Shown here piece by piece: positions 1-45,109 of a stretch of 64,000 nucleotides of DNA. Made by a program: the position numbers and the translations under genes. The DNA lies in assembly GCF_009905735.1 (NCBI RefSeq), contig NZ_JAAALE010000002.1, positions 62,001 to 126,000 of the forward strand. The letters run 5' to 3'. The DNA comes from Porphyrobacter sp. SLTP. Its GTDB lineage: Bacteria; Pseudomonadota; Alphaproteobacteria; Sphingomonadales; Sphingomonadaceae. The number at the start of each line of letters is the position of its first letter. Within the stretch, counting starts at the first letter, position 1. The notes beneath the pieces are model-generated. The model did not search any database. It was not told where the DNA came from and worked only from the letters and a program-made list of their open reading frames with translations.

Positions 1-174
1 ACGGCGGCGAACGGTCACATGCGACACTAAAACCGACGCGAATAAGCTTTTGCCTGCGAAACGCCCTTTAAAAAGGCGGACGTATTTGCGGAGCCCACGG
101 CGTAATTTTTTAGTTGATGCCTCCCTGACTTTGGCGGCCAAAATCCCGAACATTGCAGCAAGAAAGGACACGGC
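1..174. other. Left-edge non-coding stretch
   Basis: No open frame here has a ribosome binding site or family resemblance. It is less GC-rich than the genes and contains a short imperfect hairpin (about 61-77) beside A/T runs, so it may hold a terminator for a gene to the left and the promoter for the small ORF that follows. Low information. Confidence 0.3.
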
Positions 175-318
175 ATGTCTTGTCGTCCCTATGTGCTGCG
201 TTGGATTGACGGTCTTTGTTACTGGGTGGTGCTGTCAAATGACGGCGCTCAGTGCATGTTCCAGTCCTCTGTCGGATTTCTGACAGAGGAGCAGGCAAAG
301 ACTGACATCGCTTGGTAA
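175..318 (+). CDS. Possible small protein, 47 residues
   Basis: ATG-to-TAA frame of 48 codons. A purine-rich AAGAAAGGA ends about six bases before the ATG, and a strong hairpin lies just after the stop. The product begins MSCRPYVLRWIDGLCYWVVL and is rich in Trp, Tyr and Cys. The pattern of a short aromatic strand, an asparagine-centred turn and a C-terminal EEQAKTDI helix loosely resembles YegP/DUF1508-type mini-domains, but this is only an impression. No function is claimed. Support is the start context and the hairpin; a chance ORF is still possible in a frame this short. Confidence 0.4.
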   Translation: MSCRPYVLRWIDGLCYWVVLSNDGAQCMFQSSVGFLTEEQAKTDIAW

Positions 319-6964: not shown

Positions 6965-7736
6965 CAGTGAAGCTGTAGCCCGCGCCGTAGAGCGTTTCGA
7001 TGCCGTCGAAGGTGGGATCGACCAACCGGAACTTGCGCCGCATCCGCTTGATATGGCTATCGACCGTGCGATCATCGACGAAGACGTCGTCGGGGTAGGC
7101 CGCGTCCATCAACTGGTTACGGCTCTTGATCACGCCGGGGCGGATCGCGAGGGCTTCAAGGATCAGGAATTCGGTCACGGTGAGGCTGACCGTCTCGCCA
7201 TCCCACATCACCTGATGGCGCGCCGGGTCCATGAACAGGCGGCCGCGGTTGAGCGTCGCGGGCGCTGGTTCGGGCGTGGCGGCGGGGCTGGCCCCTGCCA
7301 CCAGCGGTTCGGCCCGCCGCAGGATCGCGCGGATGCGGGCGATCAGCAGGCGCAGGCTGAACGGCTTGGCGATGTAATCATCCGCGCCCAGTTCCAGCCC
7401 GGCTTCCTCGTCGCTTTCATCATCCTTGCTGGTGAGGAAAATCACCGGCAGCGGCGAATGCGCGCGCAGACGGCGGAGCAGCTCCATCCCGTCCATCTTG
7501 GGCATCTTGATATCGAACACAGCGAGGTCCGGCGGATTGTCGAGCAGCGCTTTCAGCGCGGTCTCGCCATCGGAATAGAGCCGCGTGGCAAAGCCTTCGG
7601 CCTGCAACGCAATCGCCACCGTGGTGAGGATGTTGCGATCATCATCGACCAACGCGATCTGAAGCTTGCGGGCATCCGCGCTGACGGGGTCTGCGGCCGC
7701 GGGCAAGGGGGGCTGTTCGGTGGTGCTGTCGGACAT
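6957..7736 (-). CDS. chvI: ChvI/BvrR-type response regulator
   Basis: 259-residue OmpR-class regulator. The receiver domain has acidic residues DDD31-33, phospho-acceptor Asp75 in [10 protein letters not shown] and Lys in DDYIAKPF; it is followed by a winged-helix DNA-binding domain with [20 protein letters not shown] and [15 protein letters not shown]. The start was chosen at MSDSTTEQ, with AGAGGA about eight bases upstream; frames further upstream lack conservation. It is the first gene of a minus-strand run ending at 2377 and is divergent from pckA across a 354-base region. Control of pckA by ChvI in this layout is plausible but inferred. Confidence 0.94.
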
Positions 7737-8090
7737 GGCGTCTATCCTCTCTGCCCCTGCGATTGCATGGCTGAGGGGGTAGCGCCAAGCTGCGCCAATC
7801 GCAATGCTGGCGCTGGGCGGCGGTAACATACGGGCGGGAAAGCTGCATTTGGCCGCTCCCCAAATTTGCTATGGCGCAGCGCGTTTGACGCCAGGAGGTG
7901 TGCAAACTAAGGCATCGGACCAGGGATCGAACGGCTGCTTGCACGGAACTCCGCCCGTAGTTGCATACGTATGCGCAGATGCTAAGGGGCAGGTGCTACG
8001 GACGTGACGGATGGTTGCGGGGATTCGCTGGGATCAGCCGGTCCGTCACCTGCCGAACACGACCTTGCTGCTGTCCTGCCCAGGAGACGT
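7737..8090. promoter_or_regulatory. chvI-pckA divergent intergenic region
   Basis: 354 bases with no gene. It must hold promoters for both directions. Visible structure: a 12-base palindrome GCATACGTATGC (7963-7974), and an inverted repeat GTGACGGA/TCCGTCAC (8004-8011 and 8042-8049) that would form a hairpin in the pckA leader about 40 bases before the start codon. A purine-rich CCAGGAGGTG occurs at about 7891-7900 with no good ORF after it. Any of these could be operators; none matches a consensus I can name. Confidence 0.5.
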
Positions 8091-9719
<1,629 letters not shown>

Positions 9720-9745
9720 GCCGCATTTCCTGTTGGAGAGGGAGA

Positions 9746-9780
9746 AGCCCCGCCCGGCGTAAGATCGGAGCGGGGCTTTT
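9746..9780 (+). terminator. Intrinsic terminator of pckA
   Basis: AGCCCCGC (9746-9753) pairs with GCGGGGCT (9770-9777) around a 16-base loop, followed by a T-run. It lies 26 bases after the pckA stop. Confidence 0.85.
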
Positions 9781-9841
9781 TCATTGAATCGCCGCGCAGT
9801 TGGCCCACAGTCGCCACAAGAGCGACTCGGAGGAAAACGAC

Positions 9842-10168
9842 ATGAGCATTCTCGACGGCATTCTGAAGAACATCGGCGGCGCGCCGGACGATGTGGTGAA
9901 CCTCGCGGCCAAGATCGGGATCGATCCGGCGATGGCCGGACAGGCGATCGCGGCGCTGGGCAAGACCCATCAGCTTGATGGCGACACGGTGACGCTGGCG
10001 GCGGAAAAGACCGGCCTCAGCCCGGACATTCTCAATCAGATCGTCGACGCTATCGGCGGCGAAGGTTCGCTGAGCAACTTCGCCTCGATCCTCGACCGTG
10101 ATGGCGACGGCAACCCCATCGACGACATCATGGACATGGCGAAGGGCCTGCTGGGCGGCAAGAGCTAA
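9842..10168 (+). CDS. Hypothetical protein, DUF937-like, with DxDGDG loop
   Basis: 108 residues, start ATG preceded by GGAGGAAAACGAC. It is all-helical in appearance with no signal peptide: SILDGILKNIGG, then repeating helices rich in Ala/Leu, then SNFASILDRDGDGNPIDDI. This layout recalls DUF937/YidB-like proteins. The DRDGDGNPIDDI segment (85-96) looks like a calcium-binding EF-hand loop but has Pro at position 8 and no acidic residue at position 12, so binding is uncertain. It has a short independent transcription unit after the pckA terminator and is convergent with the next gene. Confidence 0.75.
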   Translation: MSILDGILKNIGGAPDDVVNLAAKIGIDPAMAGQAIAALGKTHQLDGDTVTLAAEKTGLSPDILNQIVDAIGGEGSLSNFASILDRDGDGNPIDDIMDMAKGLLGGKS

Positions 10169-10189
10169 GGACCGAGCCGAAGCGGGGGC

Positions 10190-11743
10190 TTATTCCCCCG
10201 CCTCCGGCTCGGCAGGCGTATCATCTTCGTCCGCCAAATCTTCAATCGTGATCGCGCCGCCGGGCGGTACCTTGTCGAGCAAGGCGAGTATCTGCTTGGC
10301 CCGCCCCGCCGCTCCGCCACCATGCGGATTGGCCGCAACGGGGGAAAGCAGGTCACGCGCGATCTCCAGCTTGCCCTCTTTGATCAGCATCATCCCGGTG
10401 TTGAGCTGCAAGCCCTGATCGAAGGGCGCCAGCCGCGAGGCGTGTTCCAGCGCCGCGCGGGCGCTTTCAGGCGGTGTTGCGCCGCGTTCGGCGAAACTGC
10501 GGTAGTAATAGATCAGCGGCAGCGGGTGATCATTCTCGATCGCGTTCAGCGCCTCGAACGGCTTCATTGCCGCCTCATAGGCGGCTGCCCTGTCATCAGC
10601 GTCGCCTGCCAACCGGAATAGCGCATAGCCTTTCTGGACATAGGCATTGGTGCGCGAAGGATCGGCCGCAATGGCGCGGTCGGCCGCAGCGATGGCTTCA
10701 GCATTGTTGCCCGCGTCGTATTCCGCTTCGGCCAACGCGGCCAGAACGCCCGCATCATCGGGATACTTCGCAGCGATGGCGCGCACGTCGGGCAGGAGCT
10801 TAGCCGCCTCCTCGGCATCCACACCGCGCTGCGACCGGATCACCAGCGGCATGATGGCGGCCTCTCCGGGGGGCAACTTGCGCAAGACAACGGGGTTGCC
10901 GACGCTCAGCTTTTCGGGTGGCAGGACAAATGTCATGAAACGGCCGCCGCGCAGATAGGCTGCCAATTCACGCTCCAGCACATCAAGATCGCCGAACGCT
11001 GCTTCGCCAGCGGGGAGCGGTGCCATACCATTGAACAGGTTGCGCTGGTATTGTCCCATCTGTCCAACCCGTTCCTTGGAGAAGGTCAGGTAGTGATACA
11101 GCAGCCAGCTCTTGCCGTAGAATGCGTCGAAACGTTTGCCTTTCTGCTTTTCATACAGTTCCGGGTCGAGCAACTCGCGGACGTGGACAGGATCGGCAAA
11201 GACCAGCTCGCCCCCGCGATGCTGCGCCGCCCGGCCGATCAGCAGGCTGCCATCAAGGTTGAAGGTCGCCGCCGCAAAGAATTCCGCCGCACCCTCGTTC
11301 CACCACCGCGGCATCGGAAAGCGCGAGGAGGAAATCAGGAAGTGGTGCGCATATTCGTGCAGCATCACGATGGTTGAGAAATGCGGATAGCCCTTCTGGT
11401 TGCGGATTTCCTGTACGAACGCCCGGCTGCCGCCTGCGCGCGGGATGTAGAAGCCACCGACGCTGCGGCTACCGCTCAACTCACGCATGTCACGCTGGTC
11501 GCCCACCACGAAGATCGTCACCCGGTTCGACGGGCTGGGCTTTTCGATTTTCTGGCCGGTGAGAAATGCCATCGCGCTGTGATAGCGCTCAAGGTTCTCG
11601 GCGAATTTCCGGATGTCGGCTTCTTTGTCATCAGCATAGATGACGAAGTGGTCGCTCGACGCCTCATACCATTCCGCCCGCGCGGGCAGGCTCACCAGCA
11701 AGGCAAGCGTGGCGGCAAGAATGCGGAAAAACGCGGTCATCAT
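10190..11743 (-). CDS. Exported HExxH metallopeptidase-like protein with TPRs
   Basis: 517 residues with a signal peptide (cleaved near LPARA-EW). The N-terminal half has HEYAHH (129-134) followed by WWNEGAAEFF (E150/E154), a gluzincin-type zinc arrangement like the DUF1570/peptidase MA-like group. The C-terminal half (about 300-480) is a series of helical TPR-like repeats (AEYDAGNNAEAIAAADRAI, TNAYVQKGYALFRL). It is likely a periplasmic or envelope protein; substrate unknown. Two adjacent ATG codons could start it (11743 or 11740). It is convergent with the 108-residue gene. The acidic tail DEDDTPAEPEAGE is unusual but not suspicious. Confidence 0.8.
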   Translation of the reverse strand: MMTAFFRILAATLALLVSLPARAEWYEASSDHFVIYADDKEADIRKFAENLERYHSAMAFLTGQKIEKPSPSNRVTIFVVGDQRDMRELSGSRSVGGFYIPRAGGSRAFVQEIRNQKGYPHFSTIVMLHEYAHHFLISSSRFPMPRWWNEGAAEFFAAATFNLDGSLLIGRAAQHRGGELVFADPVHVRELLDPELYEKQKGKRFDAFYGKSWLLYHYLTFSKERVGQMGQYQRNLFNGMAPLPAGEAAFGDLDVLERELAAYLRGGRFMTFVLPPEKLSVGNPVVLRKLPPGEAAIMPLVIRSQRGVDAEEAAKLLPDVRAIAAKYPDDAGVLAALAEAEYDAGNNAEAIAAADRAIAADPSRTNAYVQKGYALFRLAGDADDRAAAYEAAMKPFEALNAIENDHPLPLIYYYRSFAERGATPPESARAALEHASRLAPFDQGLQLNTGMMLIKEGKLEIARDLLSPVAANPHGGGAAGRAKQILALLDKVPPGGAITIEDLADEDDTPAEPEAGE

Positions 11744-11850
11744 GGCAAAGCCCCCCGTGTTCGCAGCGCCAGCGACGGCACTGCAAGTGGCGTGAGATTA
11801 CCCGGATTTCTGCATCTGGCCAGAGGCTTGCGACGAATGGATCGGCTGGG

Positions 11851-13476
11851 TCAGCCGCCAGCCGCCCGCGTATCCTCCAGATATTGCCAGATGCGGCTGA
11901 CCACGACCGACCCTTCGCCCACAGCGCTCGCCACGCGCTTGACCGAGTTGGCGCGCACATCGCCGACCGCGAAGATGCCCGGGGCAGTGGTGGCGTAGTC
12001 GTCCGCCTGCCCAGCCGCAGCGCCCGTCAGCACGAAGCCCTTGTCGTCGGTTTCGGCCATGCCGGACAGCCAGCCCGTGTTGGGCGCAGCGCCGATCATG
12101 ATGAACAGCGCGCGGGTGGCGATCCGCTGCTCGGTGTCCTTGGTGCGCAGGGTGATGGCTTCGAGCCAGCTCTCGCCATGCAGCGCGGTCACGGCGCTGT
12201 GATAGTGGATCGTGATGCGCGGATCGGCCTCCAAACGCTGCGAGAGGTAGCTCGACATGGACGCCGCCAGACTGCCCGATCGCACCACCAGATGCACATG
12301 GCTCGCCGCGCGGCTGAGGAACATCGCGGCTTGCCCCGCCGAATTGCCGCCGCCGATCACCACCGCTTCGGTCTTGCCGCAGAAGCGCGCTTCCATCTCG
12401 GTTGCCGAATAGAAGATGCCCGCGCCTTCCAGTTCCTCCAGATTGTCGAGCGGCAAGCGGCGATATTGCACCCCGGTCGCCACCAGCACTGCGCGGGCGC
12501 ACAGCTCGTCACCATCGTCCAGCGTCGCGCAGAAGGCGCCGTCCGCGCGCCGCGACAGGGCTTCGACCCGGCGCGGCATCACGAAGCGCGTGCCGAACTT
12601 CATCGCCTGCACCTGGCCGCGCCAGGTGAGATCGGTGCCGCTGATGCCGGTGGGAAAGCCCATGTAATTCTCGATCCGGCTCGACGTGCCAGCCTGCCCG
12701 CCGACAGCGGTATCCTCCACCACCAGCGCCGGGATCCCCTCAGAGCCCGCATAGACCGCCGCCGCGACGCCTGCCGGGCCGCCGCCGACGATCAGCAGCT
12801 CGTAGGTCCGTTCGGCACAGATGCCGAGGTCCATGCCGAGATATTGCGCGACCTTGCGCGGGGTGGGGTCGTCCAGCCGCGTGTCCGCGCCGACGATGAC
12901 CCCTGGCGTGTGCCCGATCAGGCTGCACACCGACGCGGTTTCACGGTCGGTCGCGTCCATATCATAGCTCTGGAACGGAATGCGGTTGCGCGACAGGAAG
13001 CGCTCGACCGCCTGCACCTTCGGATCGCGGTCCGCGCCGATCACCTTGATCGTGTCATTGCGCGCCTCGAACTGCTTGCGCCGCCGCGCGGCGAACACGG
13101 TGATGAGATGGTCGGACAGTTCCGGCACCCGGCTCATCAGTTCGAGCATCGCTTCGCGTGGCGCTTCGATCACGCGGGTGTCGACCGAGGCGCGCATCCG
13201 CATGATGTTGGTGCCGCGGTTGAGGAACCCGATCTCGCCCAGAAATTGCGTCGGCCCGAGCGAGGACGGCAGCATCCGTTCGCCCGTATAGGGATCGACC
13301 ACCTCGATATCGCCTTCGAGGACATAGATGAACCGGTCCATCGGCTCACCAATGTCCATGACGATCGCACCGGCGGGGTAGAACACCTCGCCCCCGATCG
13401 CGCAGATGGCATCGACATGCGCGGGCGCCAGCGGCACCCGGCGCATGGTTTCAAGGTCTTGTCCTAAGGTTTCCAT
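11851..13476 (-). CDS. cNMP-binding domain/thioredoxin reductase-like fusion
   Basis: 541 residues, AGGAGG upstream of ATG. Domains: a cyclic nucleotide-binding fold (about 15-135, VMDIGEPMDRFIYVLEGDIEV, FLGEIGFLNRG), a linker of thioredoxin-like character (about 150-215), then a TrxR-like FAD/NAD(P)H oxidoreductase (about 225-535) with LLIVGGGPAGVAAAVYA, VVIGGGNSAGQAAMFL and GIFAVGDVR. Where bacterial thioredoxin reductase has the CATC redox centre, this protein reads YSATEMEARFC, so the active-site disulfide is absent. It is therefore probably a flavin oxidoreductase gated or localised by the sensor domain rather than a thioredoxin reductase. It stands alone. Confidence 0.85.
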   Translation of the reverse strand: METLGQDLETMRRVPLAPAHVDAICAIGGEVFYPAGAIVMDIGEPMDRFIYVLEGDIEVVDPYTGERMLPSSLGPTQFLGEIGFLNRGTNIMRMRASVDTRVIEAPREAMLELMSRVPELSDHLITVFAARRRKQFEARNDTIKVIGADRDPKVQAVERFLSRNRIPFQSYDMDATDRETASVCSLIGHTPGVIVGADTRLDDPTPRKVAQYLGMDLGICAERTYELLIVGGGPAGVAAAVYAGSEGIPALVVEDTAVGGQAGTSSRIENYMGFPTGISGTDLTWRGQVQAMKFGTRFVMPRRVEALSRRADGAFCATLDDGDELCARAVLVATGVQYRRLPLDNLEELEGAGIFYSATEMEARFCGKTEAVVIGGGNSAGQAAMFLSRAASHVHLVVRSGSLAASMSSYLSQRLEADPRITIHYHSAVTALHGESWLEAITLRTKDTEQRIATRALFIMIGAAPNTGWLSGMAETDDKGFVLTGAAAGQADDYATTAPGIFAVGDVRANSVKRVASAVGEGSVVVSRIWQYLEDTRAAGG

Positions 13477-13561
13477 GCGGCCCTCCTGCCCATCTGCCTA
13501 CCTGCCATGCGCGCGTTGCAACATGGGGTCAGGGGTGGGGGATTGCAATTCGTCCTTCGGC

Positions 13562-15412
13562 TTACCCCTTGGCCCCCGAGATGTAGCGGCTGACTGTGTT
13601 CGCCATCACCGAAAGCGGGGCGTTGCCGCCCAGCACCAAGGCGGTATTGAATTCGCGCATGTCGTACTTGCCGCCCAGTTCCGCCTTGGCGCGTTCGCGT
13701 TGGCGCAGGATCTGGCTGTGGCCGATCTTGTAGCCGCAGGCCTGTCCCGGCCAGCTGCAATAGCGGTCGACCTCGGAGGCGACTTCCTCGACCTTGGAGC
13801 CGTTGCGTTCGACAAAGAAGGCGCGGCCCTGTTCGCGGGTCCACTGCTTGGAGTGCAGCCCGGTGTCGACCACCAGGCGGCAGGCGCGGAAGGCGAGGGA
13901 CTGGAGGAAGCCCAGCCGCCCGACTTCAAAGCCCTTGTAAGCGCCGAGTTCGTCCGCGAGCTGCTCGGCATAGAGCGCCCAGCCTTCGCTGAAGGCGTTG
14001 AAGGCGAGGATTGAGCGGATCAGCGGGAGGCGGTTGGAGAACTCGCCCTCCCACACGTGGCCGGGGATCGCCTCGTGGAAGGTGAGGTCCGCGAGGTCAT
14101 AGCGGCGGTGCAGATCCGTGGTTCTGAGGTTGATCCAGAACCGCCCCGGAATGCTGCCATCCTTGCTGCCCGCCCCGCCGTAAGCGCCGGGCGCGCCGGG
14201 CTCTTCTGACAGCGGCAGACGCACCACTTCCATGCGCGGATTGACGACCTGCGTGAAGGCGCGCGGCATCTGCGATTTGATCCAGGTGAGGCGCTCTTCG
14301 ATGAAGGCGAAGATCTCCTTGCGGCCCGGATCGCCCTCGGCAAACTGGTAGCGCGGATCATCGGCCAGCGCCCGCATCCGTTCGCCAACGCTGCCCTTGG
14401 AGTAGCCGATCTTCTTGAGGATCGGGTCCATCTTGCCGTGGAGTTCGTCGAGCTCGGCGAGGCCCTGACGGTGGATTTCGTCGGGCTTGAGATTGGTGGT
14501 GGTCGATGCGCCCAGCGACCAGGCGTAATATTCCTCGCCCATCGGCTGCGCCCAGATCCCGGCGGAATCCTTGGCGGACGCGCGCTGGGTCTTAAGTTCG
14601 GCGAGCTGGCGTTCGAGCGCGGGGACGATCCCGCGCTTGGCAATGCGGGCGGCCTGTGCGGCGGCAGACTTGGCCTCCGCCAATTCGGAGCCTTCGAGCG
14701 GCCCGGCATAGGCCTCGGTCGCGCCTGCGATGCTCGCTTCCATCTGGGCGATGGCCTTGTCGAGCAGGAAGGCTGGCGGCACCACGCCCATCGCGCGGGC
14801 GGCGGTGATCCGCTCACGCTCACCATCGAGGATCGCGGGGACTTCGATCAGCCGGTCGAGATAGGGGCCGACATCATCGGCGGTCGCGAGCGGCTGGGTC
14901 GAGGAGAAGAAGCGCGGCATGTCAATATAGCCGCCGACATTCTGGATCACCACGTAAGGCGCATTGCGCCAGCTGCCGACCGCGACATCGCCGTAGGGCT
15001 TGGCCATGCCTTCGATGGCGCGGGAGAAGGCGGTTTCGACCACTTCGAAGCCGATCTGCTGGTCGCTGGTCAGCCCATCCTTGGGGTAGGCGCGGACCTC
15101 GGCGACCATCTCTTTCAGGCTGGCGGCATAGGCCTGCCGTCCGACTTCGCCCGGCGTGCCGAAGGTCGATCGCCACGCGGCATATTCGCCGGTGTCGACG
15201 CCCGCGCCGGTCGCGCGGCCCGGTTCATGCGCGAGCATCCGGTAAGCGATCCGGTCGAGCGCGGCATCGGGGTCGAGCCCGGCAATCGGGCCGCCGGCGG
15301 GCGGTGCATCGCTCGCCGCGCGTGCGGCGGCGGGGAGCAAAGCCAGGGTGGAAACACCGCCCAGCGCAGCAAGCGTCCGGCGGCGGGTGAATTGGGTAAA
15401 TCTCTCTCTCAT
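13562..15412 (-). CDS. Tat-exported DUF885 family protein
   Basis: 616 residues from MRERFTQFTRRRTLAALGG, a twin-arginine signal peptide ending near AAARA. The body is DUF885, a family thought to be zinc metallopeptidase-like, with LTFHEAIPGHVWEGEF carrying an HExxxH-like motif and WALYAEQLADELG downstream as a second glutamate site. A longer frame exists upstream but reads through the region of the opposite-strand 70-residue gene and has poor composition. Substrate is unknown. It is likely a periplasmic peptidase or carboxypeptidase. It has its own transcription unit, divergent from the small membrane protein at 15485. Confidence 0.86.
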   Translation of the reverse strand: MRERFTQFTRRRTLAALGGVSTLALLPAAARAASDAPPAGGPIAGLDPDAALDRIAYRMLAHEPGRATGAGVDTGEYAAWRSTFGTPGEVGRQAYAASLKEMVAEVRAYPKDGLTSDQQIGFEVVETAFSRAIEGMAKPYGDVAVGSWRNAPYVVIQNVGGYIDMPRFFSSTQPLATADDVGPYLDRLIEVPAILDGERERITAARAMGVVPPAFLLDKAIAQMEASIAGATEAYAGPLEGSELAEAKSAAAQAARIAKRGIVPALERQLAELKTQRASAKDSAGIWAQPMGEEYYAWSLGASTTTNLKPDEIHRQGLAELDELHGKMDPILKKIGYSKGSVGERMRALADDPRYQFAEGDPGRKEIFAFIEERLTWIKSQMPRAFTQVVNPRMEVVRLPLSEEPGAPGAYGGAGSKDGSIPGRFWINLRTTDLHRRYDLADLTFHEAIPGHVWEGEFSNRLPLIRSILAFNAFSEGWALYAEQLADELGAYKGFEVGRLGFLQSLAFRACRLVVDTGLHSKQWTREQGRAFFVERNGSKVEEVASEVDRYCSWPGQACGYKIGHSQILRQRERAKAELGGKYDMREFNTALVLGGNAPLSVMANTVSRYISGAKG

Positions 15413-15484
15413 GCCGAAAGGTTTGGCGGGGCAGGCACCCCAAGTCAATTGCACCGGGCCGCGAAGGCGGGTTAGGAGCGGGGC

Positions 15485-15697
15485 ATGACCGATATTGTGC
15501 TTTCGATCGTGATGCTGGCGGCGCTTGCGCTGGTGGCCGGGGCCTTCGTCCTGTGGCGGCGGACGGGCGAGGTGAAAAACCCGGCGCTGATGGTGCTGCT
15601 CGCCGTGATCGCGGTGATCAACGTGCTGATCTGGACCATCCCGACCGAGGGGGGCGAGGCCCCGATCACGCAATTGAAGGCCGCCGGAGAAGGCTAG
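15485..15697 (+). CDS. Small two-helix membrane protein
   Basis: 70 residues, with AGGAG eight bases before ATG. There are two transmembrane helices (about 3-22 and 34-52) separated by a basic turn WRRTGEVKNP, then a short polar tail. This is a common uncharacterised small membrane protein type in sphingomonads. It is divergent from the DUF885 gene and convergent with the TonB-like gene. The function is not known. Confidence 0.72.
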   Translation: MTDIVLSIVMLAALALVAGAFVLWRRTGEVKNPALMVLLAVIAVINVLIWTIPTEGGEAPITQLKAAGEG

Positions 15698-15727
15698 GGC
15701 AAACCCTCCCCGGCGGGCCTCGTCGGC

Positions 15728-16414
15728 TTACTCGGGGATTCGCCAGGTGATCGTGCCGCTGTAGCTGCCCGCTACCGGCTTGCCATTGCCGTCCCGCGCG
15801 GCTTCGAACCGGGCGCGCTTGGTCACGAGGTCGCAGGTCGCCGCATCGAGCGGGGCATGGCCGGTCGAGCGGGTGACGGTGCAGCCGGTCACCTTCCCGC
15901 TGGCGTCGATCGCGAGGGTGAAGCGCGCTGTGCCCGAAAGCTCCTCCATGATCCAGCGCGAGCGGTAGTCGTTGTTCGTCACCCACTTGCCCGGATTGCC
16001 GCGCGGGCGCGCGCCGACCGGATCGAAGGGCGATGCGCTCGGGCCGGGGATGGGGAACCCGATCTCGCCCATCCCGGTGCCGGTTCCCGCAGGGGTGCCG
16101 GTGACGGGAAAGTTGAATACCGTCTCGCCAAGGTTGATGTCGGTTGGCAGTTCGGCAGGCCGCGGCGCGTCCGGGATGGGCGTGGTGGTGGTGGACGTGG
16201 TTTTCTGATCCGGCTGCGGCTTGTCGGGTGTGGGCGGCGGCGGGGGCAGGATGGTTTCGGTGATAATCTCGCCTTTGATCCGGGGTCCGGCAGGCTTGGT
16301 CGCCACCGTCACCGCAAGGCCCACCACCAGCAGTGCGCCGAAGGCACCGGGAATGCCAAGCGCGCCGACAAGGGCAGCGGGGTTGGGACGGCGATTGGCA
16401 GAAGCATAGTTCAT
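15728..16414 (-). CDS. TonB family energy-transduction protein
   Basis: 228 residues from MNYASANRRP. One N-terminal membrane anchor (about 16-38) is followed by a proline-rich periplasmic stretch (PPPPPTPDKPQP) and a C-terminal TonB-like domain (about 140-228) with ARFTLAIDASGKVTGCTVTRSTGHAPLDAATC. It would couple ExbBD proton flow to an outer-membrane receptor, or be one of the accessory TonB-like proteins common in this order; no exbB/exbD is nearby. GAGGAG lies about ten bases upstream of the chosen ATG. Longer upstream frames have no coding character. Confidence 0.82.
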   Translation of the reverse strand: MNYASANRRPNPAALVGALGIPGAFGALLVVGLAVTVATKPAGPRIKGEIITETILPPPPPTPDKPQPDQKTTSTTTTPIPDAPRPAELPTDINLGETVFNFPVTGTPAGTGTGMGEIGFPIPGPSASPFDPVGARPRGNPGKWVTNNDYRSRWIMEELSGTARFTLAIDASGKVTGCTVTRSTGHAPLDAATCDLVTKRARFEAARDGNGKPVAGSYSGTITWRIPE

Positions 16415-37618: not shown

Positions 37619-39076
<1,458 letters not shown>

Positions 39077-39432: not shown

Positions 39433-39566
39433 CACCCCTCCGATAGTCCTGCGGGCTGCCACCTCCCCATCCCTTCGGGACAGGGAGGGATTGGGCGCGA
39501 TAAAGTCCCTCCCCGTTGCGAAGCAATGGGGAGGTGGCAGCGCCGTAGGGCGCTGACGGAGGGGTA
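39433..39566. repeat. Inverted-repeat element, family C
   Basis: Outer arms CACCCCTCCG / CGGAGGGGT, inner GCTGCCACCTCCCCAT / ATGGGGAGGTGGCAGC, and CGACAGGGAGGGA/TCCCTCCCCG-type pairing near the middle. It would fold into one large multi-branched hairpin about 134 bases long. No other copy was seen in the window. It separates the pnt operon from the beta-helix cassette. Confidence 0.8.
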
Positions 39567-39637: not shown

Positions 39638-40843
39638 ATGAACCGAATGGCACTTGCCGCCGTGTTGCTGGCCACAGCAGCGCCGCTCGCCGCCGAAACC
39701 CACCGGGTTGAACCGGGCGAGGGTGCGGCCGAACGCTTGCAGGAGGCACTGATCCTCGCCGCGCCGGGCGATGTGATCGAGTTGGGAGCGGGACGCTTCG
39801 TCCTGACCGATGGCCTCAGCCTCGACGTTGACGGCGTGACGCTGCGCGGGACCGGGATGGAAGGAGGGAGCGCCAGCGTGCTCGACTTCACCGGTCAGCA
39901 AGGCGCGGGCGAGGGGCTGCTCGTCACTTCCGACAATGTCACCTTGCGCGATTTCGCGGTGGAGAACCCCAAAGGCGACGGGATCAAGTCCAAGGGCGCT
40001 GATAACATCATCTACAGCGGCATCCGGGTCACATGGACCGGCGGGCCCAAGGCGAGCAATGGTGCCTATGGCATCTACCCGGTTGAGAGCACCGGCGTGC
40101 TGGTGACGAATTCCAAGGTCTCGGGCGCGTCTGATGCGGGCATCTATGTCGGTCAGAGCCGCGACATCACGGTTCGCCAGAATATCGTCGAATACAATGT
40201 GGCCGGGATCGAGATCGAGAACAGTCGCAATGCGCTCGTCACCGAGAACATCGCCACCCGCAACACCGGCGGGTTGTTGGTGTTCGATCTGCCCGGCCTG
40301 CCGGTGATGAACGGCGGCAACGTGATCCTGCGCCGGAACGTCGTGGCGGATAACGACACCCCGAACTTTGCGCCACCCGGCAACATCGTCGCCAGCGTCC
40401 GCCGCGGCACGGGCGTGCTGGTCATGGCGAATGACGGCGTGCTGATCGATGAAAACGCCTTCGAGAACAACCCGACCGCGCACATCATGGTGGTCGCTTA
40501 CACCCAGCCTTTCACCGACGCCCGCTACAATCCCTATGCCCGCAATGTGATCGTCGGCTTCAACGCCTTCGGGCGCGGCGGCGATGATCCGCAGCTTGAT
40601 GGCAAGGAGCAATTGTTGGCCGCTTTCGGCGGCACGCTGCCGCCGGTGCTGTGGGACGGGATCGTCGAGAAGGATAACGGGCTGAAGATTGCCACGGGCG
40701 TGACTGGCTGGTCGCTCAATCTGTCCAAGCCGGGGCAGAGCCTTGCCGAAGCGCAGCCCGGGCCGCTGATGCTGACCCCGGTTGAAAGCTGGGAGTTCCC
40801 TGAAGTCGGCGCCCCCGCAGCGCTGGAGGCGCGGTTGAAGTGA
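39638..40843 (+). CDS. Exported parallel beta-helix protein
   Basis: 401 residues with a signal peptide (AAPLAA-ETH). The beta-helix region (about 40-310) shows repeated rungs: NVTLRDFAVENPKGDGIKSKG, STGVLVTNSKVSGASDAGIY, NIVEYNVAGIEIENSRNALV, NIATRNTGGLLVF (first and third given in part). It matches a family (TIGR03805-like) that is usually paired with a diheme cytochrome gene, as here. No catalytic residues of known polysaccharide lyases are evident. The GTGA overlap with the next gene shows translational coupling. Probably periplasmic; function unknown. Confidence 0.87.
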   Translation: MNRMALAAVLLATAAPLAAETHRVEPGEGAAERLQEALILAAPGDVIELGAGRFVLTDGLSLDVDGVTLRGTGMEGGSASVLDFTGQQGAGEGLLVTSDNVTLRDFAVENPKGDGIKSKGADNIIYSGIRVTWTGGPKASNGAYGIYPVESTGVLVTNSKVSGASDAGIYVGQSRDITVRQNIVEYNVAGIEIENSRNALVTENIATRNTGGLLVFDLPGLPVMNGGNVILRRNVVADNDTPNFAPPGNIVASVRRGTGVLVMANDGVLIDENAFENNPTAHIMVVAYTQPFTDARYNPYARNVIVGFNAFGRGGDDPQLDGKEQLLAAFGGTLPPVLWDGIVEKDNGLKIATGVTGWSLNLSKPGQSLAEAQPGPLMLTPVESWEFPEVGAPAALEARLK

Positions 40844-41871
40844 AGCGGCGGAGTCTCGGCCTTCTGGCTTTGGCCTGCGCCACGTTCGGCGCTGCGCTCA
40901 GCCATGCGACGGTGATCGCGCCTGAGCCGGTCAACGATGCGGCGATCATCGGCGCAGCCTTCCCCAAGGCGCTGAGCGAGTTCGCGTTCTTTCAGGATGC
41001 GCGCGAGCAGCACCCGAGCGCGCGTGTGCACCCCTATGCGCTCAACACGCCGCTGTGGTCGGACGGGGCGGAGAAGCTGCGCTTCATCTATCTGCCCGAA
41101 GGCACGCAGCTTGTGGCGGATGGCGCCGAGAATTCCGGGGGCCTGCTGCAATTCCCGGTCGGCGCGGCGATCATCAAGACCTTTGCCTTTGGCGAGGGCG
41201 CGGACCGCCGCCTGATCGAAACCCGCGTGCTGCTCCACCGCGCGGACGGCTGGGTGGCACTGCCCTATCGCTGGAATGCCGAGCAGACCGAGGCAACGCT
41301 GGCCTTGGCTGGCGGGCGGATCGATCTCGTCACGCCGGCGGGCGAGACGATTTCCTATGCCATTCCGAACAAGAACCAGTGCAAGGGCTGTCACGCCAAG
41401 GACGGGCAGGTGATCCCCATCGGCCCCAAGGCGCGCAACCTCTCGGTCAAGTGGATGGCGCAGATGCTGGAGGGCGGCGCGCTCGACCGGCTGCCTCCGG
41501 GCGGGGCGACAATGCCGGTCTGGGCGGGTTACACGGATAAAGCGCCTGCCGAGCGCTTCGCCCGCGCCTATCTCGATGTGAACTGCGCCCATTGCCACCA
41601 GCCCGGCGGCGGTGCGTCCAATTCCGGGCTCGACCTGCGATGGGAGCAAGCCGATCCCCACGCCATCGGGATCATGAAACGCCCGGTCGCGGCGGGTCGC
41701 GGGGCGGGGGGGCATGACTTCTCGGTGCTCCCCGGCCAGCCCGATAAGTCGATCCTGCTCTACCGGATGGACAGCGCCGAACCCGGCATCGCCATGCCTG
41801 AACTGGGTAAAGCCAGCGTTGACAAGCAAGGCGTCGCCGTCGTGCGGCGCTGGATTGCGGAGATGAAATGA
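40840..41871 (+). CDS. Diheme c-type cytochrome, SO2930/HNE_0200-like
   Basis: 343 residues, GTG start overlapping the beta-helix stop. N-terminal signal segment (LLALACATFGAALSHA). Two heme c motifs, CKGCH (Cys181) and CAHCH (Cys249), with FPKALSEFAFFQDAREQHPS and YALNTPLWSDGAEKLRFIYL at the N-terminus. It fits the TIGR03806-type family that is found next to the beta-helix protein; neither has a proven role. Expected to be periplasmic, with heme attached by the cytochrome c maturation system. Coupled to the hydrolase gene by an ATGA overlap. Confidence 0.88.
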   Translation: MKRRSLGLLALACATFGAALSHATVIAPEPVNDAAIIGAAFPKALSEFAFFQDAREQHPSARVHPYALNTPLWSDGAEKLRFIYLPEGTQLVADGAENSGGLLQFPVGAAIIKTFAFGEGADRRLIETRVLLHRADGWVALPYRWNAEQTEATLALAGGRIDLVTPAGETISYAIPNKNQCKGCHAKDGQVIPIGPKARNLSVKWMAQMLEGGALDRLPPGGATMPVWAGYTDKAPAERFARAYLDVNCAHCHQPGGGASNSGLDLRWEQADPHAIGIMKRPVAAGRGAGGHDFSVLPGQPDKSILLYRMDSAEPGIAMPELGKASVDKQGVAVVRRWIAEMK

Positions 41872-42851
41872 TGAAGTGGGTCTGGCGCGGTTTGCTCGCG
41901 CTTCTGGGCGTCTTGGTGATCGCCTTCCTGATCTTCCGCACCCCCGATACGGACGCCGCCGAAATGCGCGCCAAGTATGGCGGGCCGCCGTCGCAATTCG
42001 TCGCAATCGGCGGCGGTGTGACCGTGCACCTGCGTGACGAGGGACCGAAAGATGCGCCCGCAATTGTGTTGCTCCACGGCTCTAATGCCGATCTGCACAC
42101 CTGGGAGCCGTGGGTCGCGGCGCTCAAGAGCCAATACCGGGTGATCCGCTTCGATCAGGTCGGCCACGGTCTGACCGGGCCTGATCCCAAGGATGATTAC
42201 AGCCGCGACAATTACGTTGCCGATATCCTCGAAGTGGCGGACAGGCTGGGACTGAAGCAGTTCATCCTCGGCGGCAATTCGATGGGCGGCAAGCACGCGC
42301 TGGCCTTTGCGATCGCTCACCCTGAGCGGCTGACCGGCCTTGTGCTCGTCGACGGCAGCGGCGGGCCGATGCTCAAGCTCGATACCAAGAAGGACGACGA
42401 CAGCGGCAATATCGGCTTCAAGATTGCGCAGACGCCGGGGGTCAACCTGCTAGTCGAGCAGATCACGCCCCGCAGCCTGATCCAGCAAAGCCTCGAACAA
42501 TCGGTCTCGGTCAAATCCGTGGCAAGCGAGGCAGCCGTGACGCGGTACTGGGAGCTGCTGCGCTACCCCGGCAACCGCCGTGCGACCTTGAAGCGTTTCG
42601 GCTACCCCTATGATCCGCTGGCCGAGGCGGATATCGCCGCAGTCACCACGCCGACGCTGATCCTGTGGGGCGAAGGGGATCGCGTGATCCCGGTCGAAGC
42701 GGGCAAGTGGCTCGCCAAGACCCTGCCGAACAACACGCTGGTGATCTATCCCAAAATTGGCCACCTCCCGCACGAGGAAGCGCCCGAGGCCACGCTTGGC
42801 GATCTGCAACCGTGGCTTGCCGAGCACGCCTTGGCGGCAAAACCGGAGTAA
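41868..42851 (+). CDS. Membrane-anchored alpha/beta hydrolase
   Basis: 327 residues. N-terminal membrane segment (about 5-23, LLALLGVLVIAFLIF), then an alpha/beta hydrolase fold: HLRDEGPKDAPAIVLLHGSN, FDQVGHGLTGP, nucleophile elbow GGNSMGGKHAL (Ser-containing), LILWGEGDRVIP and IGHLPHEEAP with the catalytic His. It starts at either ATG of ATGATG; the first overlaps the cytochrome stop. As the third gene of a coupled unit, it suggests a hydrolytic step on a substrate handled by the beta-helix/cytochrome pair; this is inference. Confidence 0.87.
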   Translation: MMKWVWRGLLALLGVLVIAFLIFRTPDTDAAEMRAKYGGPPSQFVAIGGGVTVHLRDEGPKDAPAIVLLHGSNADLHTWEPWVAALKSQYRVIRFDQVGHGLTGPDPKDDYSRDNYVADILEVADRLGLKQFILGGNSMGGKHALAFAIAHPERLTGLVLVDGSGGPMLKLDTKKDDDSGNIGFKIAQTPGVNLLVEQITPRSLIQQSLEQSVSVKSVASEAAVTRYWELLRYPGNRRATLKRFGYPYDPLAEADIAAVTTPTLILWGEGDRVIPVEAGKWLAKTLPNNTLVIYPKIGHLPHEEAPEATLGDLQPWLAEHALAAKPE

Positions 42852-42944: not shown

Positions 42945-43649
42945 TTGCGCAAACTCGGGATCATCGGCGGCATGAGCTGGGTGTCGACCGCGACCTATTA
43001 TGATCGCATCAACCGCATCGTCCAGAAACGCGCCGCCCCGATGGCAAGCGCGCCGCTGCTGATCGAGAGCCTGGATTTCTGCCAGCTCTACGCCTTGCGC
43101 GAAGAACGTGACTGGCAGCGTGCGGCAAGCGTGCTGATCGAGAGTGCCAAACGGCTTGAGGGTGCGGGCGCGGAGGGTCTCATCATTGGGGCCAATTCGA
43201 TGCACCGGCTGTTTGACGACGTGGCGGCCAGCGTGAACATCCCGATCCTGCACATCGCCGAATATGTCGGCATCGCCATGAAGCGCGCGGGGGTTACCAG
43301 CGCGGCGCTGCTGGGCACCCGCAATGTGATGACCGAGAGCTTCTATCGCAAGCGTTTGGTGGCCCACGGGATCGACTTGCTGCCGCCCAACCTCGAATAT
43401 GTCGAGATGCTCGACCGGATCATCTATGACGAGCTGATGGTCGGGAAGGTCACACGCGAGGCCGAGCGGACGCTGAAGACCATCATCACCAACAAGGCCC
43501 AGGAAGGCGCCAGCGCCGTGGTGCTGGCCTGCACCGAACTGGATCTGGTGGTCGATGTCGATGCCAATGTTCTGCCGATCTTCGATAGCACCCGCATCCA
43601 TTGCGAAGCGGCTGCGGACTGGATTTTGCATGAGGAAGCCGAGGGTTAG
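42945..43649 (+). CDS. Aspartate/glutamate racemase family protein
   Basis: 234 residues, TTG start with AAAGG about ten bases before. IIGGMSWVSTATYYDRIN, LESLDFCQL, VLACTELDLVV and the LIIGANSMHRLFDD string match the Asp/Glu racemase fold. The C-terminal catalytic cysteine (ACTEL) is present; the N-terminal position usually Cys or Thr (in CNT/TNTMH) reads ANSMH, so two-base chemistry may be altered. It acts on D/L-Asp or Glu or a related substrate; specificity cannot be told. It is 93 bases after the hydrolase and may or may not belong to that operon. Confidence 0.83.
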   Translation: MRKLGIIGGMSWVSTATYYDRINRIVQKRAAPMASAPLLIESLDFCQLYALREERDWQRAASVLIESAKRLEGAGAEGLIIGANSMHRLFDDVAASVNIPILHIAEYVGIAMKRAGVTSAALLGTRNVMTESFYRKRLVAHGIDLLPPNLEYVEMLDRIIYDELMVGKVTREAERTLKTIITNKAQEGASAVVLACTELDLVVDVDANVLPIFDSTRIHCEAAADWILHEEAEG

Positions 43650-43850: not shown

Positions 43851-43945
43851 CTGACCCAACCGGCTGTTTTCTGGCCATTTTTGCGGTGTTCTCGCCTCGT
43901 TCCGGTTGAGAAGCCCGTCCGGCTCGCCTAGGCGCTCGACCTGTG

Positions 43946-45109
43946 ATGACCCGCGCCCCCTATGCTGCCGACCCCGAGGCCCACGGGCCGCGCGAATTTG
44001 GCGGCGCTGGCGATGGCGAGCGGCGCGGTCCGCGCAGTGCCTTCCAGCGCGATCGAGACCGGATCATCCATTCGATGAGCTTCCGGCGGCTGAAATCCAA
44101 GACCCAGGTGTTCATCGCCCCCGATGGCGATCATTACCGCACGCGGCTGACTCACAGCCTTGAAGTCGCGCAAATCGGACGGGTGATCGCGCGCGCGCTG
44201 GGGCTGGACGAAGATCTGACCGAAGCCCTGTGCCTTGCCCATGATCTCGGCCACCCGCCGTTCGGCCATGCGGGGGAAGCGGCGCTTTCCGCGGCGATGG
44301 AGCGCCATGGCGGGTTCGATCACAATGCGCAGGCGCTGCGCACGGTGATGCGGATCGAGTGCCCTTATCCCGCGCATGACGGGCTCAACCTCACCTGGGA
44401 TCTGCTGGAAGGTCTGGCCAAGCACAACGGCCCGGTAACCGCGCCGAACTGGGCACTGGCGGAATTGGACGAAGCGTTCCCGCTGATGCTCGGCACCTGG
44501 CCCTCGCTTGAGGCGCAGGTCGCGGCGGTGGCGGACGACATTGCCTATGACAATCACGACATTGACGATGGGTTGCGCGCCGGGTTTCTGAGCCTTGACG
44601 ATTTGCTCGCCCTCGATTTCCTCGCAGACCAGTGGCGTAGCGTCGAAAAGCGCTTCCCCCATGCCCCGCGGGAGCGTTTGCTCCGCGAGATGATACGCGA
44701 CCAGATCGGGCTGATGGTGAATGATGTGATCGCGCACACTGCGGCGCAGGTGAAGGGCCTGCGCTCTGTCGCAGACGTGCGCGAGGCGGGGCGCCAGCTC
44801 GCCGGGTTCTCGCCCGCGATGGCCGCGCAGGAACGGCGGCTGAAGACCTTCATGTACGAACGGCTCTACTACCACCCCGAACAGATCGCGGCGGCCGAGC
44901 GTGCGCGTGATGTCGTGGCGCGGCTCTACGCCGCCTATGCACAGGACGCGCGCCTGATGCCGGAGGACTGGCAGGCACGCCTGCCGCAACGCGATCCGAG
45001 CCGTGCGCGGGTGATCGCCGATTTCATCGCCGGCATGAGCGACCGGTTTGCGATGCAGGCGGTGAGCAAGATCTATGGCGAGCGTCCCTCGGGTTTGATC
45101 AATGTCTGA
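43946..45109 (+). CDS. dgt: dGTPase-like HD hydrolase
   Basis: 387 residues. dNTP triphosphohydrolase of the HD superfamily, which lowers dNTP pools and is often regulated allosterically. The metal-binding motif is TRLTHSLEVAQIGR (His), AHDLGHPPFGHAGE (His-Asp) and a later VADDIAYDNHDIDDG (Asp). FRRLKSKTQVF at the start matches the family. An ATG at 43946 was taken; a GTG one codon before is possible. It overlaps the next gene by eight bases. Confidence 0.93.
   Translation: MTRAPYAADPEAHGPREFGGAGDGERRGPRSAFQRDRDRIIHSMSFRRLKSKTQVFIAPDGDHYRTRLTHSLEVAQIGRVIARALGLDEDLTEALCLAHDLGHPPFGHAGEAALSAAMERHGGFDHNAQALRTVMRIECPYPAHDGLNLTWDLLEGLAKHNGPVTAPNWALAELDEAFPLMLGTWPSLEAQVAAVADDIAYDNHDIDDGLRAGFLSLDDLLALDFLADQWRSVEKRFPHAPRERLLREMIRDQIGLMVNDVIAHTAAQVKGLRSVADVREAGRQLAGFSPAMAAQERRLKTFMYERLYYHPEQIAAAERARDVVARLYAAYAQDARLMPEDWQARLPQRDPSRARVIADFIAGMSDRFAMQAVSKIYGERPSGLINV

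Follow-up and report, generated by a model that had tools for sequence, protein, structure and literature searches.

The 64,000-nucleotide window analyzed here (contig NZ_JAAALE010000002.1 of Porphyrobacter sp. SLTP) carries a run of three genes encoding a right-handed beta-helix protein (BH), a diheme c-type cytochrome (CYT) and an alpha/beta hydrolase (HYD). The functional unit of this locus is the BH-CYT pair, as seen in the pairing, the fusions and the family membership of the two proteins. With a probability that we put at about 0.5, BH and CYT constitute an exported heme enzyme in two parts, located at the cell envelope, in which CYT provides a P460-like catalytic heme and a relay heme and BH a beta-helix that holds the substrate. 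Within the genus, HYD regularly accompanies the pair, as a local neighbor and not an obligate part.

BH matched family TIGR03805 with 416.6 bits (curated cut-off 141.5) and CYT matched TIGR03806 with 348 bits (cut-off 313.3), which bears out the identity proposed in a first-pass annotation made from the sequence alone. The two families (parallel beta-helix protein and SO2930 family diheme c-type cytochrome) form a known pair, for which we found no assigned role; its adjacency and order are the same in the window, whereas a HYD gene downstream was seen elsewhere only in Erythrobacteraceae and in two metagenome-assembled genomes (MAGs) not named beyond order level. The window genome contains one match to each family. 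In the 100 genomes of the genus, TIGR03805 was found in 93 (92 over the cut-off) and TIGR03806 in 91 (89 over the cut-off), the latter also being present in 14 of the 289 genomes of a class sample (12 over the cut-off) and in 46 of the 398 genomes of a phylum sample (37 over the cut-off). Two of the genus matches are in two pieces, through decay or sequencing error (CYT in G031:C1:1598439-1599357 and BH in G012:C1:787274-788189).

The named loci used for comparison were the best 80 of at least 575, and the set is therefore biased toward close kin; the closest named relative among the loci listed is Erythrobacter colymbi (CYT 78%), and we accordingly place the genome in Erythrobacteraceae. BH was present at all 80 loci (partial in L070) and CYT at 79 (L043 is cut). 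Among 39 distant loci with a gene-called CYT, BH was adjoining or fused in 35, the exceptions being L161, L162, L163 and the Sandaracinus plasmid L108. The two genes thus travel together in the relatives sampled, as the first-pass annotation had stated. In gene picking on the relatives' loci, L074, L076, L078 and L152 were lost, L064, L070, L089, L091, L097 and L103 had been excluded in advance, and L177 was outside the set.

In six loci (L139, L140, L177, L158, L159 and L160) BH and CYT form a single open frame, and each of the six fused chains begins with a lipobox, as judged by eye. In the L139 protein, TIGR03805 matches residues 67-402 and TIGR03806 residues 541-875. Of 136 sequences, 41 showed a crude lipobox pattern before CYT, but many of these matches, including that of the window CYT, are false. 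In the L139 region (7123-16164), another TIGR03806 protein comes after the fused gene and a Lipase_bact_N protein lies farther along, an arrangement resembling the Shewanella SO_2930-SO_2934 region. The family name and the L139 protein suggest that SO2931 is a TIGR03806 member; it is described in a passage of PMC5357785 as an outer-membrane diheme lipoprotein.

The AlphaFold model of CYT (predicted local distance difference test, pLDDT, 87.7) was submitted to a structural aligner. The top 13 entries were all cytochromes P460 or c'-beta (Z 5.0-6.8, with 113-133 residues aligned), and the next entry had a Z value of 3.9. Since the Z values alone could be due to chance, the relation was tested at the level of sequence. 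A profile-profile comparison of CYT and P460 with the heme motif kept gave a probability of 64.6 over 85 columns. With the heme motif removed, hhalign gave 28.0, compared to a mean of 11.0 (standard deviation 2.3, maximum 17.5) for 150 column shuffles and 11.9 for the reversed profile. A repeat without the heme motif, using 141 CYT and 43 P460 rows, gave 28.3 (reversed, 14.1; 200 shuffles, mean 10.4, standard deviation 2.1, maximum 21.1); these P460 rows represent 43 of 48 loci, the other five having no usable CXXCH frame. A heme-free P460 profile was also searched against 2249 proteins (141 CYT N-terminal domains and 2108 other proteins), and CYT domains took all of the first 30 places, 48 of the first 50 and 86 of the first 100. 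Pfam model PF16694 matched 11 of 43 CYT relatives at E ≤ 10, with a best value of 9.5e-4. We conclude that the N-terminal domain of CYT is a relative of cytochrome P460/c'-beta; the resemblance in fold is weak, and that in sequence, with the heme motif taken out, exceeds the shuffled controls. The first-pass annotation had called this protein a diheme cytochrome; the two heme motifs are present, while the P460-like domain makes it more than a plain diheme cytochrome. No link between TIGR03806 and P460 came up in our searches of open-access papers.

The conservation of individual residues was examined in a set of 140 non-identical sequences, each 250 amino acids or longer, drawn from 179 matches and including many close kin. 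A survey of heme motifs, which the first-pass annotation had suggested, found the Cys and His residues of both CXXCH motifs in all 140 CYT relatives. Arg81, Lys113 and Glu127 were each present in 140 of 140 as well, and Met319, a possible axial ligand of heme 2, in 139. In NeP460, Lys70 forms the cross-link to the heme, Glu96 is the proton acceptor and Arg44 helps in cross-linking, while c'-beta proteins are without the lysine link, according to a review (PMC11928373). Lys113 and Arg81 align with the cross-linking lysine and with the strand-1 Arg/His position, respectively. In L163, too short to enter the set of 140, the Arg81 position is occupied by His, the residue that the same review gives for NsP460 (PMC11928373). 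Within the P460 family itself, Glu or Asp was found at the carboxylate column in 19 of 26 rows with the lysine versus 1 of 17 rows without it (43 rows).

Several results weigh against a P460-like enzyme. Z values below 8 may reflect a common arrangement, and Foldseek returned no significant match with CYT (best E 0.18). In hhalign, the heme-free comparisons aligned just 33 and 38 columns, covering strands 1-2, at a probability of only ∼42%, and the best E value of the heme-free P460 profile in hmmsearch was 0.0012. A profile restricted to four NeP460-like sequences did not recover the relation (probability 2.8), a phmmer search of the PDB with the CYT N-terminal domain gave one unrelated match at 0.85, and profile A2 gave no PDB match at 0.1. 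Glu127 lies on the next strand, and its alignment to the distal carboxylate (Glu96 in NeP460) is of low confidence. The gene families listed as neighbors of the pair include none clearly pointing to nitrogen oxides. Finally, the window CYT had no match to the curated model PF16694 at E ≤ 0.001 or E ≤ 10; because this model was not passed, we refer to CYT as P460-like and not as a P460 member.

For heme ligation, cross-link, catalysis, docking, electron direction and substrate, we infer the following. Heme 1 would be held five-coordinate in the P460-like domain, surrounded by Lys, Arg and probably Glu as in cytochrome P460, and would be the catalytic site, possibly with a cross-link between Lys113 and the heme. 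Heme 2, probably with His/Met ligation, would serve as an electron relay linking heme 1 to the respiratory chain. BH would dock to CYT and present or confine the substrate. HYD would be an esterase anchored in the membrane, and its place at this locus in Erythrobacteraceae would have other grounds. A probable five-coordinate heme domain combined with a probable His/Met domain is an architecture expected of a diheme enzyme and less so of a carrier.

The strongest alternative, which we regard as rather less probable, is that CYT is only an electron acceptor module, its P460-like domain being a structural heme holder, and that a partner carries out the oxidation, namely BH at this locus and a pyrroloquinoline quinone (PQQ) sugar dehydrogenase in the fused relatives. 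In the distant loci L161 (6869-10456) and L162 (7383-13496), TIGR03806-like domains are fused to PQQ glucose/sorbosone dehydrogenase (GSDH) domains; the L162 protein additionally contains F5/8 type C and ThuA domains. An acceptor role is easy to picture in such fusions, and they count against a catalytic CYT. The presumed relative SO2931 is likewise listed as an outer-membrane electron-transfer cytochrome in passages of four papers (PMC5955497, PMC12175506, PMC5357785, PMC5829830). On the other side, the 50 structural entries listed for BH include no redox enzyme by title, and the strict invariance of Lys113, Arg81 and Glu127 seems to exceed the needs of a plain carrier. These three residues and the CXXCH motifs persist in the GSDH-fused L161 and L162.

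The proposed two-part heme enzyme may be compared with the known P460 and c'-beta cytochromes. Shared features are a CXXCH motif at the end of the domain, a Lys at the cross-link position and an Arg/His on strand 1; the fold of residues 39-202 matches weakly, and the Glu on the next strand is a candidate counterpart. CYT differs from them in that additional strands precede heme 1, it contains another c-type domain and has a beta-helix protein as partner, and its score lies below the Pfam cut-off. A word search of the review's main text found no mention of fused, diheme or multidomain P460 forms (PMC11928373). A broader and distinctly speculative proposal, which we hold to be unlikely at present, is that TIGR03806 represents an unrecognized branch of the lysine-cross-linked P460 enzymes, equipped with a relay heme and spread over many heterotrophic proteobacteria, which would oxidize hydroxylamine or another N-O compound presented by BH at the envelope and pass the electrons to respiration.

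The BH model (pLDDT 93.4) has as its nearest solved folds the modules of the mannuronan C-5 epimerases AlgE4 and AlgE6 and an alginate epimerase/lyase, with Z ∼33 over 285-299 residues and, for the AlgE modules, 18-20% identity. This similarity would fit a BH that is itself a catalytic polysaccharide-active enzyme (an epimerase or lyase like AlgE), with CYT only anchoring or regulating it. The catalytic residues of AlgE are Tyr149, Asp152 and His154, according to a passage of PMC7385640; in BH, by spacing alone, these would read Tyr144, Tyr147 and Val149. The motif YGxDPH was found in none of 133 BH sequences and YGxYPV in 118 of them. As the AlgE Asp and His are apparently replaced by Tyr and Val, BH appears to share the AlgE scaffold while conserving another motif, and we consider its catalytic role in polysaccharide modification improbable. 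A NosD-like copper function was also rejected: TIGR04247 scored 43.9 bits against a cut-off of 300, and NosD, although among the structural matches, ranked under AlgE.

The first-pass annotation had further proposed that the pair and HYD form a three-gene cassette, in which the hydrolase processes an ester or lactone product of the oxidation at the envelope. The three open reading frames and their overlaps (GTGA at BH/CYT and ATGA at CYT/HYD) are as described there. An in-frame NTGA overlap was observed at BH/CYT in 61 of 79 relatives' loci and at CYT/HYD in 19 of 27; because they are kept across relatives, these overlaps exceed chance, and they suggest translational coupling. CYT and HYD were both present in 88 of the 100 genus genomes, and in 82 of these HYD lies directly after CYT, with a gap of at most 51 bases. 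In the other six the genes are split over contigs (G034) or lie apart (G002, G005, G044, G089 and G098).

Each part is, however, also retained without the other. CYT without HYD was found in G054, G071 and G083 (only G071 being listed as 100% complete) and HYD without CYT in G004, G073 and G078. In G002, G004, G005, G044, G073, G078, G089 and G098, HYD lies between pntB and a putative dgt gene (at 43943-45109 in the window, downstream of the racemase gene), with no pair there. In three of these genomes (G002, G044 and G089), a divergent pair is located elsewhere (BH 46%, CYT 40-41%), and the sequence extracted around it contains no match to HYD. The reverse is seen in G071, where the order is pntB-BH-CYT-racemase-dgt. 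The pntB-dgt loci (L199-L207) can be viewed as natural experiments, with HYD alone in eight genomes and the pair alone in one. Among the named loci, CYT leads straight into the racemase gene in eight (L034, L042, L053, L055-L058 and L060), and HYD follows the pair in 27 of 80: 25 loci named in Erythrobacteraceae genera or only as that family, and MAGs L054 and L059, whose names go no further than phylum and order, respectively. None of the 39 distant gene-called loci showed a HYD match among the genes displayed, five on each side. The presence of loci with HYD alone and of loci with the pair alone indicates that each can do without the other; on these grounds, and from its absence in the distant loci examined, HYD as an obligate third part was rejected. 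The expected conservation of the hydrolase with the pair holds as linkage within the genus, and functional dependence is not supported.

HYD matched Abhydrolase_1 (2.5e-30), and its N-terminal anchor was recognized by eye, in agreement with the anchored alpha/beta hydrolase annotated earlier; none of the 25 listed of its 36 NCBIfam matches reached a curated cut-off. Its best solved match was PDB entry 6i8w (E 1.9e-24, aligned over residues 7-317, with a shared GNSMGG motif), which is PlaF, the membrane-anchored phospholipase A of Pseudomonas aeruginosa, and not a lactonase. PlaF has the same layout of an N-terminal anchor and an alpha/beta hydrolase fold; it should be noted that the second-best match of HYD, a poly(3-hydroxybutyrate) depolymerase, is close (E 1.2e-20). 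Given this match and the loci that keep either part alone, we judge processing of an ester or lactone by a three-gene cassette to be very improbable.

A scan of 128 of 144 direct neighbors outside the close family identified no wider conserved third gene beside the pair. The commonest families among these 128 were TetR (10), TonB receptors (8) and DUF2147 (8), with AraC regulators also present, and no alpha/beta hydrolase family occurs among the 25 listed of 148 neighbor families. In a small alphaproteobacterial genome (L169:4070-10576), the pair stands in a compact run with a flavin adenine dinucleotide (FAD) oxidoreductase, an NmrA-type protein, a P450 and a GFA protein; L170 has gene lengths like those of this run.

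The features of the locus are compiled in the table.

Features of the BH-CYT locus and of the CYT protein (window positions)
Feature	Position	Strand	Basis or detail
pntB-type gene, upstream of BH	37619-39076		558.7 bits, below the equivalog cut-off of 689
BH, predicted exported right-handed beta-helix protein, TIGR03805	39638-40843	+	open reading frame, 401 aa
CYT, diheme c-type cytochrome, TIGR03806	40840-41871	+	open reading frame, 343 aa, GTG start
CYT N-terminal P460/c'-beta-like domain	residues ~39-202		structure and profile comparison
Arg81, at the position of the strand-1 Arg/His of P460	41080..41082	+	profile alignments
Lys113, aligned with the P460 cross-linking lysine	41176..41178	+	profile alignments
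Glu127, possible equivalent of the distal carboxylate in P460	41218..41220	+	strand order only
CKGCH, heme 1 site, end of P460-like domain	41380..41394	+	CYT residues 181-185
CYT C-terminal cytochrome c domain	residues 241-280		Pfam Cytochrom_C
CAHCH, heme 2 site, C-terminal domain	41584..41598	+	CYT residues 249-253
HYD, predicted membrane-anchored alpha/beta hydrolase	41868-42851	+	open reading frame, 327 aa
Asp/Glu racemase family protein, surrounding locus, outside the pair	42945-43649	+

Signal peptides are predicted on BH and CYT and an N-terminal anchor on HYD, all read from the sequence by eye, which agrees with the export and anchoring annotated before. A 93-base gap separates the end of HYD from the start of the racemase gene, whose membership had been left undecided. 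It is placed outside the pair: of the eight pntB-dgt loci that lack the pair, six retain the racemase gene, and in eight other loci (L061, L063, L066, L087, L090, L101, L105 and L106) it is found upstream of the pair. A promoter scan found no plus-strand promoter-like site, the terminator count was not above that of shuffled sequence, and a PHROGs search gave no matches. Just 5' of BH (39460-39548), an 89-base intergenic inverted-repeat element was observed; with 48 full or partial matches genome-wide (both strands counted), it belongs to a family resembling repetitive extragenic palindromes or miniature inverted-repeat transposable elements.

The cross-linked heme of P460-type proteins has a visible absorption signature. 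The link between CYT and P460 therefore offers a concrete and cheap way to probe a gene pair for which no assigned role was found. Two of the three characterized P460s in the table of the review oxidize hydroxylamine (PMC11928373). If the reading proposed here is true, P460-type chemistry would occur in a far wider set of bacteria than the ammonia oxidizers and methanotrophs.

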